A stretch of DNA of 64,000 bases from an uncultured Myxococcales bacterium (GCA_903847405.1 CAINDP010000099.1:1-64000), one strand, 5' to 3'. Positions 49,612-57,826 are shown, counted from the stretch's first letter. Numbers and translations are program-made. Notes: generated by a model not told the origin, from the sequence alone.

Positions 49612-50067
49612 ATGAGGCATCCGATCCGGTTCGTTGCGATGATGGCGGTCCTGGCGTTGGCGATCGGCGTCGGGTGCGGCAAGTCCGAGCCCCCGAAGAA
49701 GACCGAAGCGGCCCCCGCCGCCGCCCCGGCCCCTGCCGAAGCCCCGAAGCCCGCGGCCGTCGTGACGCCCCCGGCGGGCCAGCCCGCTGCCGAGGCCGCG
49801 AAGGGCGCCGAGGCGGGCGAGGCCGGCGAGGCCCCCGCCCCCAGGGCCGCCGAGGCCGCCCCGGCGGTGGACAAGGACAAGCTGGCGAAGGCCTACCTGG
49901 CGGTGTACTGCGCCCAGAAGAAGGGCGAAATGGACAAGATCCTGGGGATCTACAAGGAATTCGGGTTCGACACGCCCCAGTCCTTCACCAAGACCTGGAT
50001 CGAGGCCGCCAAGGACACGGACTGGGTCACGAAGATTGCCCACGACGTCGGGAAGAAGTGCCCGTGA
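49612..50067 (+). CDS. Small lipoprotein with Ala/Pro-rich linker
   Basis: The protein has 151 residues: a lipoprotein signal (ending IGVGC, Cys at 22), an Ala/Pro/Glu-rich linker (about 25-85) and a small helical C-terminal domain (VDKDKLAKAYLAVYCAQKKGEMDKI). The C-terminal domain repeats a pattern of helices with two Cys (CAQ and KKCP). The function is unknown. The last 41 bases overlap the 3' end of the btuD-like gene on the opposite strand. Confidence 0.75.
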   Translation: MRHPIRFVAMMAVLALAIGVGCGKSEPPKKTEAAPAAAPAPAEAPKPAAVVTPPAGQPAAEAAKGAEAGEAGEAPAPRAAEAAPAVDKDKLAKAYLAVYCAQKKGEMDKILGIYKEFGFDTPQSFTKTWIEAAKDTDWVTKIAHDVGKKCP

Positions 50068-50881
50068 CGGGTTCCCCCTCCCGCCCCATCGGAACCACGA
50101 ACAACCTCCCGTTCACCTCGTTGCGGCCGATGTAGAGGTCGCAGCCGAAGGTTTCCCGCAAGGTCGTCCAGCGCATCACCTCCTCGGGGTCGCCGACCGC
50201 GCGGATGGCGCCGTCCCGCATCAGCACGATGCGATCGCAGGCCAGCAGCGCGACGTTCAGGTCGTGGATGGCGGCCACGACGGCCACGCCCTGGGTTCGG
50301 GCCAGATCCGCGACGCGATAGACCAGGGACACGGCGTGGGCGACGTCGAGGTTTGCCGTGGGCTCGTCCAGCAGCAACAGGCGCGGTTCCTGGGCCAGGG
50401 CCCGGGCCACCAGCACGCGGCGCTGCTCGCCGGCGGACAGTTCCTGGTAGGGACGCCGGGCGAAGGGCGTCGCCTCGGCGATCTCGAGGGCGCGGCGCAC
50501 GGCCGTCCGGTCGTCGTCGGACTCGAAGAGGCCCTTCAGGCGCGCGGTGCGGCCCAGGGCGACGAAGTCCAGCACGGTCATCGGGAAGCCCACGGCCAGG
50601 GAGGCCGGGACCAGGGCGACGGTCCGGGCCACGGTCGGGCGGGAGGCCCGGGCCGGGTCGAATCCGGCGGTGCGGACGGACCCGGCGGTCGGCGTGATGA
50701 GGCCCGCCGCCAGGCGCAGGAGGGTCGACTTCCCGGCGCCGTTGGGCCCGATGATGCCCACGAACTCGCCGGGCGCCACCACGAGGTGGGCGTCGAGGAC
50801 CGCGGGGGCGGCGGCGCCCGGGTAGGCGAAGGTGGCGCCTTCCAGGCGCAGGGGCGTGGTGTTGGCGGGGGCGGGAGTCAC
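50027..50881 (-). CDS. btuD: Cobalamin-type ABC transporter ATPase
   Basis: The 284 residues carry Walker A GPNGAGKST, signature LSAGEQRRVLVARALA and Walker B LLLLDEPTANLD, the BtuD/FhuC/FepC subfamily pattern. It powers import by the BtuC-like permease. Translation starts at GTG (50881), overlapping the permease stop as GTGA. The substrate is inferred from the riboswitch at the head of the operon. Confidence 0.92.
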   Translation of the reverse strand: MTPAPANTTPLRLEGATFAYPGAAAPAVLDAHLVVAPGEFVGIIGPNGAGKSTLLRLAAGLITPTAGSVRTAGFDPARASRPTVARTVALVPASLAVGFPMTVLDFVALGRTARLKGLFESDDDRTAVRRALEIAEATPFARRPYQELSAGEQRRVLVARALAQEPRLLLLDEPTANLDVAHAVSLVYRVADLARTQGVAVVAAIHDLNVALLACDRIVLMRDGAIRAVGDPEEVMRWTTLRETFGCDLYIGRNEVNGRLFVVPMGREGEPVTGTSSRRRGQSS

Positions 50882-51891
50882 GGCCGGTCGCCTCCGCGCT
50901 TGAGGAGCCAGATGAAGGCGGGCCCGCCGATGAGGGCCGTCAGGACGCCCACCGGCGCCTCGGTGTCGAAGACCGGGAACATCAGGCGCGTCAGGAGGTC
51001 GGCCAGGACCAGGAATGCGGCGCCCAGGAGGGCGCTGCCGGGGATCGTGACGCGGTGGTCCGAACCCACCAGGGCCCGGACCGCGTGGGGAACGATCAGG
51101 CCGACGAAGCCGATCATGCCCGCCACCGACACGGCGGCGGCGACCAGCAGCGATCCCGCCAGGAACACCCGGCGGGTCGTCCGGCCGGGGTCGACGCCCA
51201 CGGCGGCCGCGTCCTCCTCGCCCAGGGCCAGGGCGTTCAAGGCGGGGGCCGACGCGAACAGCATGCCCAGCGCGAAGAGGGCCACGGCCAGGGTGCCCAG
51301 GATGGCGCCGGGGCTGCGGACGTCCGACGACAGGGTGCCCATCAGCCACAGCAGCATTTCCTGGGCCTTTTCGGCCCGGACCACGGACTTCAGGAACATG
51401 ATGGCGGCCGAGGCGATGGTGTTGAACACGACGCCGACCAGCAGGACCTCGTAGGCCCGCATCCGGCCCCGGCGGTCCCGGGACAGGCGCCAGGTCAGCG
51501 CGACGGCGCCCAGGCCGCCCAGGAAGGCCGCGGCGGACACGCCCGCGTGGCCCAGCAGGGCGATGCCCGGGATGACCAGGGCCAGCGTGCCGCCCAGGGC
51601 CGCGCCGCCGGCGACGCCGATCACGTACGGGTCCGCCAGGGGGTTCGACAGGACGGCCTGGAACACCAGGCCCGAGGCCGACAGCGAGGCGCCGACGATG
51701 GCCGCCAGGATCGTGCGCGGCAGGCGCTCGTGCAGCAGGACCAGGCGGTCGGCCGGGGCGCTGCCGGTCAGGGCCCCCAGGAGGTCCAGCGGCGTCGCGC
51801 CGAGGGCCAGGGACAGCAGCACGGAGGCGCCCAGCAGGACCGCGAGGCCCGCGAAGAAGGCCGGAATGCGGGGGCGGGACACCAGGTTCAT
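50878..51891 (-). CDS. btuC: Cobalamin-type ABC transporter permease (FecCD/BtuC family)
   Basis: The protein has 337 residues with about ten membrane helices and family motifs such as LPRTILAAIVGASLSASGLVFQ, NPLADPYVIGVAGGAALG and GLIVPHAVRALVGSDHR. It would form the inner-membrane channel with the ATPase encoded by the overlapping next gene. It lies 48 bases after the binding-protein gene. Confidence 0.94.
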   Translation of the reverse strand: MNLVSRPRIPAFFAGLAVLLGASVLLSLALGATPLDLLGALTGSAPADRLVLLHERLPRTILAAIVGASLSASGLVFQAVLSNPLADPYVIGVAGGAALGGTLALVIPGIALLGHAGVSAAAFLGGLGAVALTWRLSRDRRGRMRAYEVLLVGVVFNTIASAAIMFLKSVVRAEKAQEMLLWLMGTLSSDVRSPGAILGTLAVALFALGMLFASAPALNALALGEEDAAAVGVDPGRTTRRVFLAGSLLVAAAVSVAGMIGFVGLIVPHAVRALVGSDHRVTIPGSALLGAAFLVLADLLTRLMFPVFDTEAPVGVLTALIGGPAFIWLLKRGGDRP

Positions 51892-51939: not shown

Positions 51940-52809
51940 TCAAGGTGGCGCGGGTGCGGGCTCGGGTACGGGTGCGGGGTTTACCGCCCGCACGATCTGA
52001 TCCGCCAGGTCCAGGGCGGCCTTGCCGGTCCCGGGACCCGGCCGCAGGAGGGCCTCGTCCCGGACCCGCACGACGCGCCCTTCCCGGGCCGCGGTCAGCC
52101 CGGCGTCGGCCAGGTGGGCCGGGAGGTCGCCAGCCTCCAGGGCACCGTCCACGACGACATCCGGCGCGGCGCGAATCACCTGTTCCAGGGACCACGTCGG
52201 GTAGGGCATCGTGTCCGACGACGCGGCGTTCGTCACTCCCATCCGGGCCAGCAGGTCGCCCAGGTACGAGGACCGGGCAGCCACCACCAGGGGATTCCGC
52301 CCGACCACCATCAGCACCGTGATCGGCGGCGTCCTTGCGGCCCGCCCCGCCAGGATGGCCAGGTCCGCCCGGTACGACGCGGCCAGGGCCTCGGCCGCCG
52401 CCTCGCGCCCGACGCCCGCGCCGATCGCCCGGATGCCCGTTTCCACGTCGTCGGCCGTTTCGAACACGACGGGGACCCGGCGCACGCCCGAGGCATCCAG
52501 CATGTCCGCCAGGTGTCCCCGGAGGACCGAGGGCGAGCCCACCACGATATCCGGCCGGGCCGCCAGGACCGCTTCCAGCGAAACGTCCAGGATGCCGCCC
52601 ACCCGGGGGACGGCCTTCGCTGCGTCGGGGCGATCGCAGTACCGCGTTGCGCCCACCAGGTTGGGGCCCACGCCCAGGGCGAACAGGATTTCGGTGGCAT
52701 TGGGTTGCAGGGACACGATCCGCGGGCGGGGGCCCTGGGCCGCCGGCGGCGGGGGCTTGCAGGCTCCGGCGAGGACCAGGGACAGCAGGATTGCCAGGGA
52801 ACGGGCCAT
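51940..52809 (-). CDS. btuF: Cobalamin-type periplasmic binding lipoprotein (BtuF-like)
   Basis: The 289 residues carry a lipoprotein-like signal (LSLVLAGACKP, Cys at 17). The mature protein has the two-lobed BtuF/FepB pattern: RIVSLQPNATEILFALG, VGATRYCDRP and VVVDGALEAGDL. It would deliver the substrate to BtuC. The Pro/Ala-rich tail is encoded by a degenerate CGGGTA-type repeat. The ATG directly follows the TAG of the propeller gene with no gap. Confidence 0.88.
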   Translation of the reverse strand: MARSLAILLSLVLAGACKPPPPAAQGPRPRIVSLQPNATEILFALGVGPNLVGATRYCDRPDAAKAVPRVGGILDVSLEAVLAARPDIVVGSPSVLRGHLADMLDASGVRRVPVVFETADDVETGIRAIGAGVGREAAAEALAASYRADLAILAGRAARTPPITVLMVVGRNPLVVAARSSYLGDLLARMGVTNAASSDTMPYPTWSLEQVIRAAPDVVVDGALEAGDLPAHLADAGLTAAREGRVVRVRDEALLRPGPGTGKAALDLADQIVRAVNPAPVPEPAPAPP

Positions 52810-54024
52810 CTAGCGCACCTCCCGAACGATGGCGGCGGTGTCCAGGTCCACCACGAACAGGCTGGCGGACTGCTGGCCCGTGATCGCGGCCATCGTCCGG
52901 GAGCCGTCGGCGTAGACCGCGATGTCGTAGGGATTGGTCCCCGTCGGGAGGATGGCGACCTTGCCCTGCAGGCGCCCGGTGTTCGGGTCCAGGGCCGTGA
53001 CGTTGTTGTCCCCGGAGTTCACGACCAGCAGCCGGTCGCCGTCCAGCAGCAGGCGGTTGGGGTACAGGCCGGTCGTCGCGAAGTCGTTGCGCACCCCGGC
53101 GGGGCCCTGGGCGGAATCGACGGCCGAGATCGACGAGGCGAGGCCCAGCAGCACGTAGACGTCGGGGCTGGCGCCGGGGCGCAGGGCGATGTCCTGGACG
53201 CCGACGGACTGGGTGCCGGTTCCGACCGGGAAGGGGACCAGGTAGGCCGGGCTGAGGTCGCCCGTCGTCCCGTCCAGGACCACCACCGCGTTGTTTTCGA
53301 ACCGGCCCGCCAGCAGCGTGCCGCCCGGGCCGGGCCGGACCACGATGGTGTCCTGGGCGTCCAGGTCCCCCAGCGCCACCGGGTTCGTGGTTCCCCGAAG
53401 GACCGTGCCGGCGTCCAGATCCACCAGCAGAACCGCCGGCGCGGTGCCGCTGCCCAGCCAGACCCGGCGGCCGTCGGCCGACAGGGCGAGGGAGGACGGG
53501 TAGCCCACCAGGGGGTGCACCGTGGACGCCGGGACCGGGATTTCCCGGACGAGGGCCGGTTGCCCCGCGGCGGCCCGGGCGGCGTCCAGGACCACCACCG
53601 AGCCGTCGCCGGCGGGCCGGACGGTGGTCCCGTCGAAGGCCGTGGCGCCCGAACACAGCACGACGACCCGGTCGCCCGCGGCGGCGACGACCTGGGGGTT
53701 CCGGGCGGACACCGGGATCCGTTCCAGGATGCCGCCGTCGGCCAGCCGGACGACGGTCACGAAGCCGGGGCCGTAGACCAGCGTCTGGCCGGACCAGCCG
53801 ACGTTCGGGTTGGCGACGAAGGCGATCCCGCGGGATACGGCCACGCCCTGGGGGGACGCGAAGGAGGCCTCCGGGAGGCCCGTGCCGGGGTCCGACGCGG
53901 GGATGTCGAAGTTCCCCGGCAGTTCGGTCTGCGGCATCTGGTCGCAGCCGGCCAGCGCCAGGACCATCCCGGCCGCCAGCACTGCCGCCGCCGCGTTCGC
54001 CCTCCCCAGGTTCCTGCGCACCAT
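52810..54024 (-). CDS. Beta-propeller lipoprotein in the cobalamin operon (BtuG-like candidate)
   Basis: The protein has 404 residues: a lipoprotein signal (lipobox LAGC, Cys27), then YncE/NHL-like propeller sequence with repeated blade motifs such as SPQGVAVSRGIAFVAN, YPSSLALSADGRRVWLG, NRLLLDGDRLLVVNSGDNNVTAL and NPYDIAVYADGSRTMAA. It lies between btuB and btuF with no gap to btuF and 26 bases to btuB. In Bacteroides a propeller lipoprotein, BtuG, binds B12 at the surface together with BtuB. Operon position and fold make a similar role here plausible; homology to BtuG itself is not shown. An Asp follows the lipid Cys, which in E. coli keeps lipoproteins in the inner membrane, so surface display is uncertain. 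Confidence 0.75.
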   Translation of the reverse strand: MVRRNLGRANAAAAVLAAGMVLALAGCDQMPQTELPGNFDIPASDPGTGLPEASFASPQGVAVSRGIAFVANPNVGWSGQTLVYGPGFVTVVRLADGGILERIPVSARNPQVVAAAGDRVVVLCSGATAFDGTTVRPAGDGSVVVLDAARAAAGQPALVREIPVPASTVHPLVGYPSSLALSADGRRVWLGSGTAPAVLLVDLDAGTVLRGTTNPVALGDLDAQDTIVVRPGPGGTLLAGRFENNAVVVLDGTTGDLSPAYLVPFPVGTGTQSVGVQDIALRPGASPDVYVLLGLASSISAVDSAQGPAGVRNDFATTGLYPNRLLLDGDRLLVVNSGDNNVTALDPNTGRLQGKVAILPTGTNPYDIAVYADGSRTMAAITGQQSASLFVVDLDTAAIVREVR

Positions 54025-54050
54025 CCCTCGTCCTCCCGGCCGCCGGCCCG

Positions 54051-55952
54051 TCACAGGTCCAGTCGAATCGATCCGTACAGGGACCACCCGGGCAGCGGCG
54101 ACTGCAGGAAGTCCACCGCGTCCCGGTCGTTCGTCAGGTTCATCCCGTCCAGGGCCAGCGCGACCCCCCGGGCGGGCCGCAGTTCGACCCGGGCGTCCAG
54201 CCGGAAGCGCCCCGCCTCGGACAGCGAGCCGTAGCGGTCCAGCGTGAACGCCGACTGCCACGAGGGCAGGATCGCCACCCGCAGGGGTCCGACCTCGACT
54301 GCCGCCTCGCCCGCCACCCGGTGTTCGGGGCGTCCCGGCAGGGGCTTCCCGGTGTCGGTGGTCCGGGCATGCAGGAAGGTGTAGGACGCCCGGGCCGACA
54401 GCCACCTCCACCGTCCCTCTGCGGACGTTTCCACGCCGCGCATCGTCGCGCCGCCCGAGTTTTCGGCCCGGACCAGGAAGGCGGACCGCGGCAGGAACAC
54501 GACCAGGTTCCGGGCGCGGTTCTCGAAGTACGCCGCCTTGATGCTCCAGCCGGCGCCCGTGGCCTCGATCCCGGCGTCCCAGGTCAGGGCGTCCTCGGGC
54601 TGGAGGTCCGGGTTCCCCTGGACGTAGCCGGCGTCGAAGTACAGTTCCTCGAGGGTCGGCAGGCGGAACGCCCGGGCCACGTTGGCGGTGATCCGGAAGG
54701 GGCCGAAGGGACGCAGGAAGGCCCCGGCCCGCGGCAGGGCCCGGACGCCGAAGCCCTCGTCCCATTCGACGCGAACGTCGGCCTCGATCCCCCACCAGCC
54801 GCCCGGCCGCCCGACGCGACTTCCCACGCGGCCCGCCGCGGTCGTCCGCCGGGGTTCATAGGAGGCCTGGCTCTTGCGCTGCACGTCGCCCCGGTCCCAG
54901 GTGAACGAGGCCCCGGCGGACAGGGACGCCAGGTCCCAGGGCGCGACCTCGGCCTCGGCCTCGCCGCCCAGGCCCCAGGCGACCAGCCGGGTATCGACGG
55001 CGGGACCCATCGGCGGCGCCGCGTCGGCGAAGGCGAAGCCCAGGCGACGCACCCAGGCCCGGACGGCCGACGAGCCCCCGCGGCCGAACAGCCGGGGGCC
55101 CTCGTAGGACAGTCGCGCGATCAGGCGATCGTTGCGCTGGCGGGCGGTGGTCGACGGGAACTGCTCCAGGCCGGGGACGTCCCGTTCTTCCCGGAGGCCC
55201 TCCAGCAGCAGGCCCCATCGATGCCCCGGCGCCGGCTCGAAGCCGGCCCGCGCCAGGCCCTCGACCGCCAGGGAGGCGTTGTGATCCCGCTGCCGGGTCC
55301 GGCCGTTCGCGTCCCGGAACGTGTAGTCCCCGGTCGAGGTCAGGATCCCGGCGGACGCCATCCCGCCGAACCGCCCCGAGGTCCCGCCGGCCGCGGCCTT
55401 CAGGCGGTGCGTTCCGAAGGACCCGAACAGGGTCGAGGCCCGGAGGAAGGGGCCGTCGAGGGGATCGGGGATCACGGCCCGGAGGACCCCGCCCACGGCG
55501 TCGGTGCCGTTGCGAGCCGAGGCGCCGCCCCGCTGCAGTTCCAGGGCGTCCAGGGGCAGCAGGGACAGCGCCGCAAGGTCCGCGCCGCCCAGGAACGGCG
55601 AGTTCAGGGGCACGCCGTCCAGCGTCGCCAGCGTTCCCTGGGGGTCGGCGCCCCGGACCGACAGGGACGCGGCCTGTCCGGGACCGCCGGCCTGCCGGAC
55701 GTGGGCCCCGGGCGTCCGGTCCACGGCCTGGGCCGGCCCGTTGGGCGCCTCGAGGTCGGCGGGGGTGGTGATGCGCTGGGTGGCCGCGACCGCGTCCTTC
55801 CGATCGGCGGTCGCCTCGACCTCCACCGGCGGAACCACGACGGCCTCCTGGGCCAAGGCGAGGGCGGGCAGCAGGGCCATGGCGAGGAGGCAGGGGGCCA
55901 CCAAGGGGGCAACAGCCCGCCGAAACGACGGATGGGGTGGGTCGAGCCTCAC
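54051..55952 (-). CDS. btuB: TonB-dependent cobalamin receptor (BtuB-like)
   Basis: The protein has 633 residues: a signal peptide (through LALAQ), a TonB box region, a plug domain (TPADLEAPNGPAQAVDRTPG, VRQAGGPGQAASLSVRGADPQGTLATLDGVPLNS) and a beta-barrel ending GWSLYGSIRLDL with a C-terminal hydrophobic residue as barrels have. I chose GTG at 55952 (AGAGGCG upstream); the frame is open further upstream but runs into the riboswitch. B12 as substrate is inferred from the riboswitch and the btuFCD genes. Confidence 0.9.
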   Translation of the reverse strand: MRLDPPHPSFRRAVAPLVAPCLLAMALLPALALAQEAVVVPPVEVEATADRKDAVAATQRITTPADLEAPNGPAQAVDRTPGAHVRQAGGPGQAASLSVRGADPQGTLATLDGVPLNSPFLGGADLAALSLLPLDALELQRGGASARNGTDAVGGVLRAVIPDPLDGPFLRASTLFGSFGTHRLKAAAGGTSGRFGGMASAGILTSTGDYTFRDANGRTRQRDHNASLAVEGLARAGFEPAPGHRWGLLLEGLREERDVPGLEQFPSTTARQRNDRLIARLSYEGPRLFGRGGSSAVRAWVRRLGFAFADAAPPMGPAVDTRLVAWGLGGEAEAEVAPWDLASLSAGASFTWDRGDVQRKSQASYEPRRTTAAGRVGSRVGRPGGWWGIEADVRVEWDEGFGVRALPRAGAFLRPFGPFRITANVARAFRLPTLEELYFDAGYVQGNPDLQPEDALTWDAGIEATGAGWSIKAAYFENRARNLVVFLPRSAFLVRAENSGGATMRGVETSAEGRWRWLSARASYTFLHARTTDTGKPLPGRPEHRVAGEAAVEVGPLRVAILPSWQSAFTLDRYGSLSEAGRFRLDARVELRPARGVALALDGMNLTNDRDAVDFLQSPLPGWSLYGSIRLDL

Positions 55953-56020
55953 GGGGCGCCTCTTGTCCTCGAAGAGGTTGACCGGGGCGAAGGCGGGGGA
56001 GCCGTCGCGCACCGGGCCAT

Positions 56021-56255
56021 CCTGCGGGCAGGTCTCCTGGCTTGGGGGCCGGGGCGCACCCGATCGGGCGTCCCCAGGAACCGTTCGCCTTCCCAGGGTC
56101 GCCCCCGGTGGCCTCGGAACGGTTCCCGGCCGTGAGGCGCGCCGCATCGGCGACGCCCGTCCGGCCTGCTCCCTTACAGTGGCGGGACCGCGCGGGATTC
56201 ACACCCGCTTCCCTCGAGGACGGGGGTCCTCCCCGTCCACCCGCAAGGGGATTCC
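56021..56255 (-). promoter_or_regulatory. Cobalamin riboswitch
   Basis: On the minus strand the B12 box AGCCAGGAGACCTGCC (56042-56027) is exact. Further upstream come GCCACTGTAAGG (56184-56173) and GGGTGTGAATCCCGC (near 56208-56194), the other hallmark segments of the class. The 5' and 3' limits are approximate. It sits about 70 bases before btuB and would switch off the operon when adenosylcobalamin is bound. Of the 388-base gap between btuB and the Kazal-like gene, this accounts for most; the rest holds the promoter. Confidence 0.95.
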
Positions 56256-56262
56256 GGGGCGA

Positions 56263-56291
56263 ACGTTGTCATGGAGAAGGGTGGAAGTCAA
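56263..56291 (-). promoter_or_regulatory. Promoter of the cobalamin operon (minus strand)
   Basis: TTGACT (56291-56286), 17 bases, CAACGT (56268-56263). The -10 match is weak, but the predicted start near 56256 coincides with the 5' edge of the riboswitch. Confidence 0.4.
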
Positions 56292-56340: not shown

Positions 56341-57771
56341 CTACGGGCAGGCGCCGACCGTGGAGGTCTCGCCGAAGCACTTGGTCGGGAAGCAGGAGGT
56401 CGGGTAGGTGATGCCGTCGGCGCCGCAGTGCACGCCGTCCTCGGTCCCGGCCTTCGGGCTGGCGATGGTGCCGCACTGGGTCGTGCAGAACGAACACTGG
56501 CCGGCCGTGCCGATGCTGGTCCCGGCAAGGCACGTCTCGAAGCAGGCGTTCTGGTACGTCGTGTTGGCGGCGCAGACCGGCGACAGGGTCGTCGGGCACT
56601 GCTCGCAGATGCGCGTGCAGGCGCCGGTGTGCAGGACGCCGCCGTGGCAGGCGGCCTGGCAGGCGTTGGCGTAGGTCTTGCCGTCGTTGCCGCAGACCGC
56701 CGTGCCGGTCGTGGGGCAGGGCGAGGCGCCGTGGCACAGGGCGGTGCACTGGTTCGGGTAGGCGTTGCCGTCGTTGCCGCATACCTCGACCATCGGGTCG
56801 CTGTCGCACTGCGGGCAGCAGAAGCCCGCGTAGGCGATCTGCTTGGTCCCCGTGCCGCAGGTCGTGGCCGCGCAGGCGTTGCCGTACGTGATGTTGTCCT
56901 CGCCGCAGACCGGCGAGCAGGTGGTCGGGCAGGACGGGCAGAAGCCCTGGCCCAGGCACTCGCCGCGGCACGCCCGGGTGGCCCCGGCGCCGCAGGTCGC
57001 CAGCGAGCACTGGTTGTCGTACGTCTTGTTGTCGCTGCCGCAGACCTTGTCCTCGGGCTGGCCCAGGCAGGCCTCGCACACCGGCGGCGGGCAGATCCCG
57101 AAGTTCTGGATCTTCGTGTCGTAGGTGAACAGGCAGTTGAGGGCATCCTTCATCGCGCAGACGTCGGCGAAGTCGGTCTTGACGCCGGCGTTGTCGCCGC
57201 AGACCGGGCCGCACGTCGCGAACGACAGGCGCTCGCATTCCGCGGTCTTGTCGCAGGGGCAGACGGCGCACTCGCCGCGCCAGGTGTAGTAGTTGGCCTC
57301 GGGCAGGTCCACGCAGTCCGTCTTGTCGCCCGTGCAGCCTACGCAGTTGGGGCCCGGGGCGCAGAGGGCGCACTTCGCGCAGACGTCGCTCTTGAACTCG
57401 GTCCGTGCCAGGCCGGGGAGGGGACCCTGGAGGCAGACTTCCGCGCCCACGACGGTCTCGTTGCAGGGACACTGCGACGGCAGCACTTCCACGCCGGGGT
57501 CTGTCGGTTCGATGGTTTCCCCGTCCGGGATGCCTTCGTCCGGAACTTCCACGTCGACCACCACGCCCTCTTCCGCCTGGTCGTCCCGATCCACGGTGCC
57601 ATCCACCGGCACGTCGACGGTCGTTCCGTCCGGCACGTCCGATTCGATCAATTCGACGTCATCGACATCCTCGATCGGGATGTCCGTCGGCGCCGAACTG
57701 CCACCGCAGGCCAGGGCCAACACGAGGACGGCGGCCCACAGGGGCGAACGAAGCGTGGATCGAACGGTCAT
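56341..57771 (-). CDS. Cys-rich lipoprotein with multiple Kazal-like domains
   Basis: The protein has 476 residues: a lipoprotein signal (LVLALACGG), an acidic Asp/Val/Pro-rich linker (about 25-95) and about six Kazal-like modules, each with a V/HCGxDGxTYxNxC motif (VCGSDNKTYDNQC, VCGEDNITYGNAC, VCGNDGKTYANAC and others). Kazal domains inhibit serine proteases; bacterial multi-Kazal lipoproteins may protect the surface or be structural. GGAGG stands 6 bases before the ATG at 57771; an ATG 12 bases earlier is less well placed. It follows the outer-membrane protein gene by 55 bases. Confidence 0.85.
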   Translation of the reverse strand: MTVRSTLRSPLWAAVLVLALACGGSSAPTDIPIEDVDDVELIESDVPDGTTVDVPVDGTVDRDDQAEEGVVVDVEVPDEGIPDGETIEPTDPGVEVLPSQCPCNETVVGAEVCLQGPLPGLARTEFKSDVCAKCALCAPGPNCVGCTGDKTDCVDLPEANYYTWRGECAVCPCDKTAECERLSFATCGPVCGDNAGVKTDFADVCAMKDALNCLFTYDTKIQNFGICPPPVCEACLGQPEDKVCGSDNKTYDNQCSLATCGAGATRACRGECLGQGFCPSCPTTCSPVCGEDNITYGNACAATTCGTGTKQIAYAGFCCPQCDSDPMVEVCGNDGNAYPNQCTALCHGASPCPTTGTAVCGNDGKTYANACQAACHGGVLHTGACTRICEQCPTTLSPVCAANTTYQNACFETCLAGTSIGTAGQCSFCTTQCGTIASPKAGTEDGVHCGADGITYPTSCFPTKCFGETSTVGACP

Positions 57772-57826
57772 GGCAGCCTCCAAGACAAAAAGGTGCGCCG
57801 GTCATAGTGTACGGCACCCGCCCGCA

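Follow-up and report, generated by a model that had tools for sequence, protein, structure and literature searches.

Does a propeller lipoprotein encoded within a cobalamin (B12) uptake operon of an uncultured Myxococcales bacterium act as a counterpart of BtuG, the seven-bladed partner of BtuB in Bacteroides? One study describes BtuG as confined to Bacteroidetes (PMC6143338) and another reports it absent from other BtuB users (PMC12751083); a literature search turned up neither a permuted BtuG nor BtuG-like propellers from Myxococcota. The operon lies in a stretch of 64,000 nucleotides, referred to here as the window, for which a preliminary description had proposed a BtuG counterpart outside Bacteroidota, with a convergent YncE-like propeller as the fall-back. 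The analysis places the window protein as a BtuG-like, B12-regulated partner of BtuB and not as part of the BtuG family in its present definition.

The cobalamin uptake operon

The operon is read from the minus strand in the order cobalamin riboswitch, btuB, propeller lipoprotein, btuF, btuC and btuD, with intergenic gaps between the five genes of 26, 0, 48 and -4 bases; this order and spacing, already given in the preliminary description, agree with the coordinates and with the Rfam, Pfam and NCBIfam assignments. The leader carries a cobalamin riboswitch aptamer (RF00174, 56010-56259, minus strand), which scores 47.8 bits, above the gathering score of 31.5 bits, and is recovered again in a whole-genome search. 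The B12 box earlier noticed upstream of btuB is present inside this match and legible in the DNA as AAGCCAGGAGACCTGCC. The btuB gene (54051-55952, minus strand, GTG start assumed) encodes a TonB-dependent cobalamin receptor with TonB receptor and plug domains, its best NCBIfam model being TIGR01779 ‘TonB-B12’, and is followed by the propeller gene (52810-54024, minus strand). The remaining genes, all on the same strand, encode the cobalamin-binding periplasmic protein BtuF (51940-52809; Peripla_BP_2 in Pfam, BtuF best in NCBIfam), the permease BtuC (50878-51891; FecCD in Pfam, BtuC best in NCBIfam) and the ATPase BtuD (50027-50881; corrinoid ABC ATPase in Pfam and NCBIfam). Since their scores fall far under the curated equivalog cut-offs, the proteins flanking the propeller are considered divergent Btu proteins. 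A B12-dependent methionine synthase domain was found in the genome of the window and CbiD gave no match there; the genome therefore depends on B12 and may lack the means to produce it, so that uptake matters.

Two further features of this region were recorded. An ARAGORN call of a tRNA-Ser inside btuB, antisense to it (54566-54660, plus strand), lacks Rfam support and is probably spurious. Upstream of the operon and on its strand, 56341-57783 encodes a Cys-rich protein of Kazal-like repeats, the start of which resembles that of a lipoprotein.

The propeller lipoprotein

The propeller gene, present in single copy in the genome, encodes a BtuG-like protein of 404 amino acids, for which alignment and AlphaFold2 give seven blades in the order 1-2-3-4-5-6-7, termed type I. 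The AlphaFold2 model, built with 12 orthologues in the alignment, has a pLDDT of 87.6 and a pTM of 0.85. A LAGC lipobox (53944-53955, minus strand) contains the lipidated Cys27, with Asp at +2, and this Cys is invariant in the 12-sequence alignment of orthologues. Across 23 type I sequences, the loop positions conserved at 80% or more (10 of 10) all sit in the D-A and B-C loops and thus on one face, whereas the A-B and C-D loops of the other face, with 55 positions scored, contain none. Conservation of one face is partly common to YVTN propellers; therefore it supports a pocket and does not identify the ligand. Proteins throughout the family are acidic, a property shared with the B12 face of BtuG2 (PMC10404256), and counterparts of the Trp and Tyr residues which narrow the pocket of BtuG2 are not evident among the conserved columns.

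Other known propellers and accessory lipoproteins resemble the window protein in part. The E. coli YncE/YVTN propellers (3VGZ, 1L0Q) share its fold, but the window protein reaches 24 bits against the YncE equivalog NF052280, the cut-off of which is 400, and we know of no link between YncE and btuB or cobalamin riboswitches. XusB of Bacteroides (DUF4374; PMC13142918) is likewise a propeller lipoprotein that forms a lid on a TonB-dependent transporter; it captures iron siderophores, however, and DUF4374 is not among the Pfam matches of the window propeller. BtuJ/DUF4465, BtuH and BtuK are, similarly, accessory B12-binding lipoproteins of riboswitch operons, with DUF4465 reported in Myxococcota too, but they belong to protein families other than that of the window propeller (PMC13398666, PMC12751083).

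Distribution of the family across Myxococcota

The window propeller is one of a family spread across Myxococcota, in which the arrangement of riboswitch, btuB and propeller is conserved. Within the order of the window, a homologue occurs in 13 of 14 genomes, and every one with upstream DNA present sits directly behind btuB, the two genes usually almost touching. A riboswitch lies upstream of 11 of these 13 propeller loci, including one below the gathering score (L048), the remaining two being truncated at contig ends. Because genomes of the order contain 0-2 RF00174 matches each, yet 11 of 13 loci have one upstream, the link between riboswitch and propeller is not chance. In the rest of the class, a riboswitch above threshold accompanies nine of ten loci. 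Sampling of the phylum recovered the family in 63 of 379 genomes; at the further loci so obtained, a riboswitch falls within the fetched stretch in 17 of 36, and btuB is mostly adjacent, either in front or divergent. The preliminary description had suggested checking whether the family co-occurs with B12 riboswitches across Myxococcota, and this is what is found: at 53 of 59 loci the propeller gene lies near a cobalamin riboswitch, btuB or btuFCD, and at 37 the riboswitch is present, so the family lies mostly within B12 operons and not outside them. The six loci without such context include two where the contig ends at the propeller (L071, L154) and one on a contig of 4.4 kb (L152).

Of the 58 loci fetched, 40 have a btuB gene no more than 350 bp from the propeller. 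At five loci (L138-L141, L146) the propeller gene and btuB lie in opposite orientations, divergent or convergent, and no riboswitch was found nearby. A profile search of genome contigs with a narrower alignment returned close homologues only, whose named records come from Myxococcales or Myxococcota, or else from metagenome assemblies bearing the label Deltaproteobacteria or Oligoflexales, while the plasmid records searched for homologues of either blade order gave no match.

Two circular permutants

Blade order is not uniform within the phylum. In several Myxococcota families (f19, f48 and f42), the profile of the window family matches in two pieces, with the last quarter of the profile coming first in the gene. 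The 21 proteins of this kind that were collected, nearly all with a lipobox, are termed type P; their motifs run in the order of window blades 6-7 and then 1-5, giving a blade order of 6-7-1-2-3-4-5 in place of 1-7. In a profile-profile comparison with hhalign, blades 1-5 of type I match the C-terminal two thirds of type P (residues 138-394) at 30% identity and an E-value of 1.7e-48. Rotated so as to begin at blade 6, the type I profile matches type P as one domain of 335 residues and 208 bits, as opposed to 249 residues and 140 bits unrotated, and among the seven rotations the single-domain optimum falls exactly at the start of blade 6. At the level of sequence, the two types are accordingly a genuine circular permutation of each other and not the outcome of loose repeat matching.

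In a tree of the partner BtuBs, type I and type P split at a single branch (SH-aLRT 99), with one change between types as compared with a mean of 13 after shuffling. As the BtuB tree separates the types by one branch, the permutation probably happened once and would have been passed on together with btuB. Tandem propellers are present in two type I genomes (L075:6008-8451 and L071:234-2732, the latter one open frame of 833 residues); these are possible intermediates, representing a duplication of the kind through which permutations can arise.

Relation to BtuG and origin of the cassette

BtuG1, BtuG2 and BtuG3 of Bacteroides (DUF5074; PDB 3DSM, 8BLW, 8PTD, 8PTF; PMC6143338, PMC10404256) resemble the Myxococcota proteins as seven-bladed propeller lipoproteins encoded beside btuB with a riboswitch upstream, and they are the best structural matches in the PDB of the type P relatives. 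They differ in belonging to another phylum and in the pocket aromatic residues described above. The blade order of the window protein is permuted with respect to type P; the permutation is claimed, from sequence, between the two Myxococcota types and not between the window protein and BtuG itself. The BtuGs differ also in matching DUF5074 (PF16819), their family in Pfam: three Bacteroidota BtuGs used as controls, whose loci have the same order of riboswitch, btuB and propeller, match it at 40-52 bits (cut-off 27.2), whereas neither the window propeller nor any type I or type P protein examined gave a match. The window protein is thus outside the sole existing sequence definition of BtuG. Of the counterpart put forward in the preliminary description, the functional analogy is well supported through the conserved riboswitch-btuB-propeller arrangement, but the absent DUF5074 match sets the protein apart from the family proper.

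Remote sequence similarity to BtuG does exist, with E-values of roughly 1e-9 to 1e-11 in small searches, and ordinary YVTN, NHL and YncE propellers in the PDB are matched by profile searches at similar values. In rotation searches against the three BtuGs, type P aligns best in its natural order (39.0) and type I best unrotated (48.4), which leaves the register to BtuG ambiguous. Among the BtuGs themselves, a BtuG1 fragment (PDB 8PTF/8BLW) aligns to the BtuG2 and BtuG3 chains (8PUJ/3DSM) with a shift of approximately one blade; these paralogues may differ in register, or the shift may reflect repeat ambiguity.

Predicted structures divide by type. The type P AlphaFold2 model (seven blades, pLDDT 89.6), compared with 350,542 PDB chains, ranks two BtuG-cyanocobalamin entries first and second, 8PTF (E 8e-13) and 8PTD (1.3e-11), which give identical sequence alignments, apparently represent the same sequence and are counted once; 8BLW (BtuB1-BtuG1) follows 18th and 3DSM 37th. 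Some 1,460 chains are significant matches of this model, of which perhaps 15 are BtuG, and on that assumption the chance of a BtuG at rank 1 is about 1%. The Foldseek search with the type I model of the window itself has generic propellers only among its top 50 matches, BtuG being absent from these. The structural comparison suggested in the preliminary description therefore favours BtuG for the type P relatives and not for the window protein, and the permutation may account in part for the failure of the type I model to rank it.

The partner receptors provide a further line of evidence. In a small tree of BtuBs, those with a propeller partner form one group spanning Bacteroidota and Myxococcota, separate from the BtuBs of the E. 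coli type (SH-aLRT 99); in AU tests a grouping of Bacteroidota with Proteobacteria is rejected (p 0.008) and one of Myxococcota with Proteobacteria nearly so (p 0.055), on a sample with few proteobacterial rows and a long Bacteroidota branch. The competing account of origin is that Myxococcota recruited a YVTN/YncE-like propeller independently to a position next to btuB, where it binds cobalamin without descending from a cassette shared with BtuG, an account which concerns origin and not function and is compatible with a capture role. It draws on the commonness of propellers, the ambiguous register, the missing DUF5074 match and the behaviour of the window propeller alone, which by sequence has YncE as its best PDB match and otherwise meets generic models (PQQ_2, YncE, YVTN repeat), all below cut-off. 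Against it stand the first rank of BtuG for the type P structure, the gene order and riboswitch common to both phyla, and the grouping of the propeller-partnered BtuBs, so that convergent recruitment, the earlier fall-back, is now rather unlikely and common descent with the BtuB-BtuG cassette appears the likelier of the two. A fuller version of common descent, which falls somewhat short of probable, is that the BtuB-propeller cassette is older than Bacteroidota and shared with Myxococcota, where one natural permutation would have shifted the point of membrane attachment by two blades without loss of the pocket face or of the partnership with BtuB.

Proposed function

By analogy with BtuG of Bacteroides, the window propeller probably works as a cobalamin capture lipoprotein dedicated to BtuB, an assessment that applies to the capture role and not to common descent. 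BtuG binds cobalamin with femto- to picomolar affinity and forms a stable complex with BtuB, the B12 being displaced by the BtuB loop EL8; capture, surface exposure and a lid-like action on BtuB are ascribed to the window protein because of this analogy (PMC6143338, PMC10404256). When cobalamin is scarce, the riboswitch would permit expression of the operon and BtuB and the propeller would be made together. The lipid-anchored propeller would then bind cobalamin on its conserved face, around the central pocket, and pass it to BtuB, from which BtuF and BtuCD would carry it inward.

The main mechanistic rival is a lipoprotein facing the periplasm, which would take cobalamin from BtuB and hand it to BtuF without forming a surface lid. 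The propeller gene touches btuF in the window (gap 0), and at four loci (L124-L126, L150) the propeller adjoins btuFCD instead of btuB. The Asp at +2 is shared by the window protein and its nearest relative, and Asp at this position is an inner-membrane retention signal in enterobacteria; to our knowledge, moreover, no surface-export signal has been recognised in Myxococcota lipoproteins. In Bacteroidota, LES serves as the surface-export signal (PMC6143338), and none is known for the Myxococcota propellers. Most orthologues, however, carry Glu or another residue at +2, btuB is a far more constant neighbour than btuFCD, many loci pair btuB and propeller without adjacent btuFCD, and the solved structures nearest type P are surface BtuGs, all of which renders periplasmic hand-over improbable relative to capture at the surface. 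That the propeller is instead a BamB-like assembly or stability factor of BtuB without ligand binding, as its tight linkage to btuB and a weak, sub-threshold PQQ_2/BamB match might suggest, is very improbable given the concentration of conserved loop positions on one face and a single-copy gene under a cobalamin riboswitch.

A second riboswitch-linked lipoprotein family

Homologues of a LIC13354-family exoprotein and a LIC_13355-family lipoprotein (LIC_13354/LIC_13355) were also observed directly behind cobalamin riboswitches. In the genome of the window, one such locus (L003:1638-2983, on contig C138) matches the LIC_13355-family model NF033170 at 171 bits and lies behind a second RF00174 match at C138:55915-56037. 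Further homologues occur at L020, L021, L022, L035, L038, L039, L045, L046, L081, L128 and L134, and in several genomes genes of this type are found inside the btuB-propeller operon. The Leptospira LIC_13355 has been studied as an adhesin, with B12 not mentioned there (PMC11891782); the genomic position of the Myxococcota homologues suggests a role in B12 acquisition for these families.

Implications for cobalamin capture

The presence of a B12-regulated propeller partner of BtuB across Myxococcota would extend lipoprotein-assisted B12 capture to settings other than the gut, and suggests that capture by propellers is older and more widespread than the gut bacteria once thought to be its sole holders. 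The pair formed by type I and type P makes it possible to test directly which elements of the lid model are sensitive to the position of the tether and, if the cassette does predate Bacteroidota, the permuted propeller would constitute a natural experiment on the hinging of the lid.
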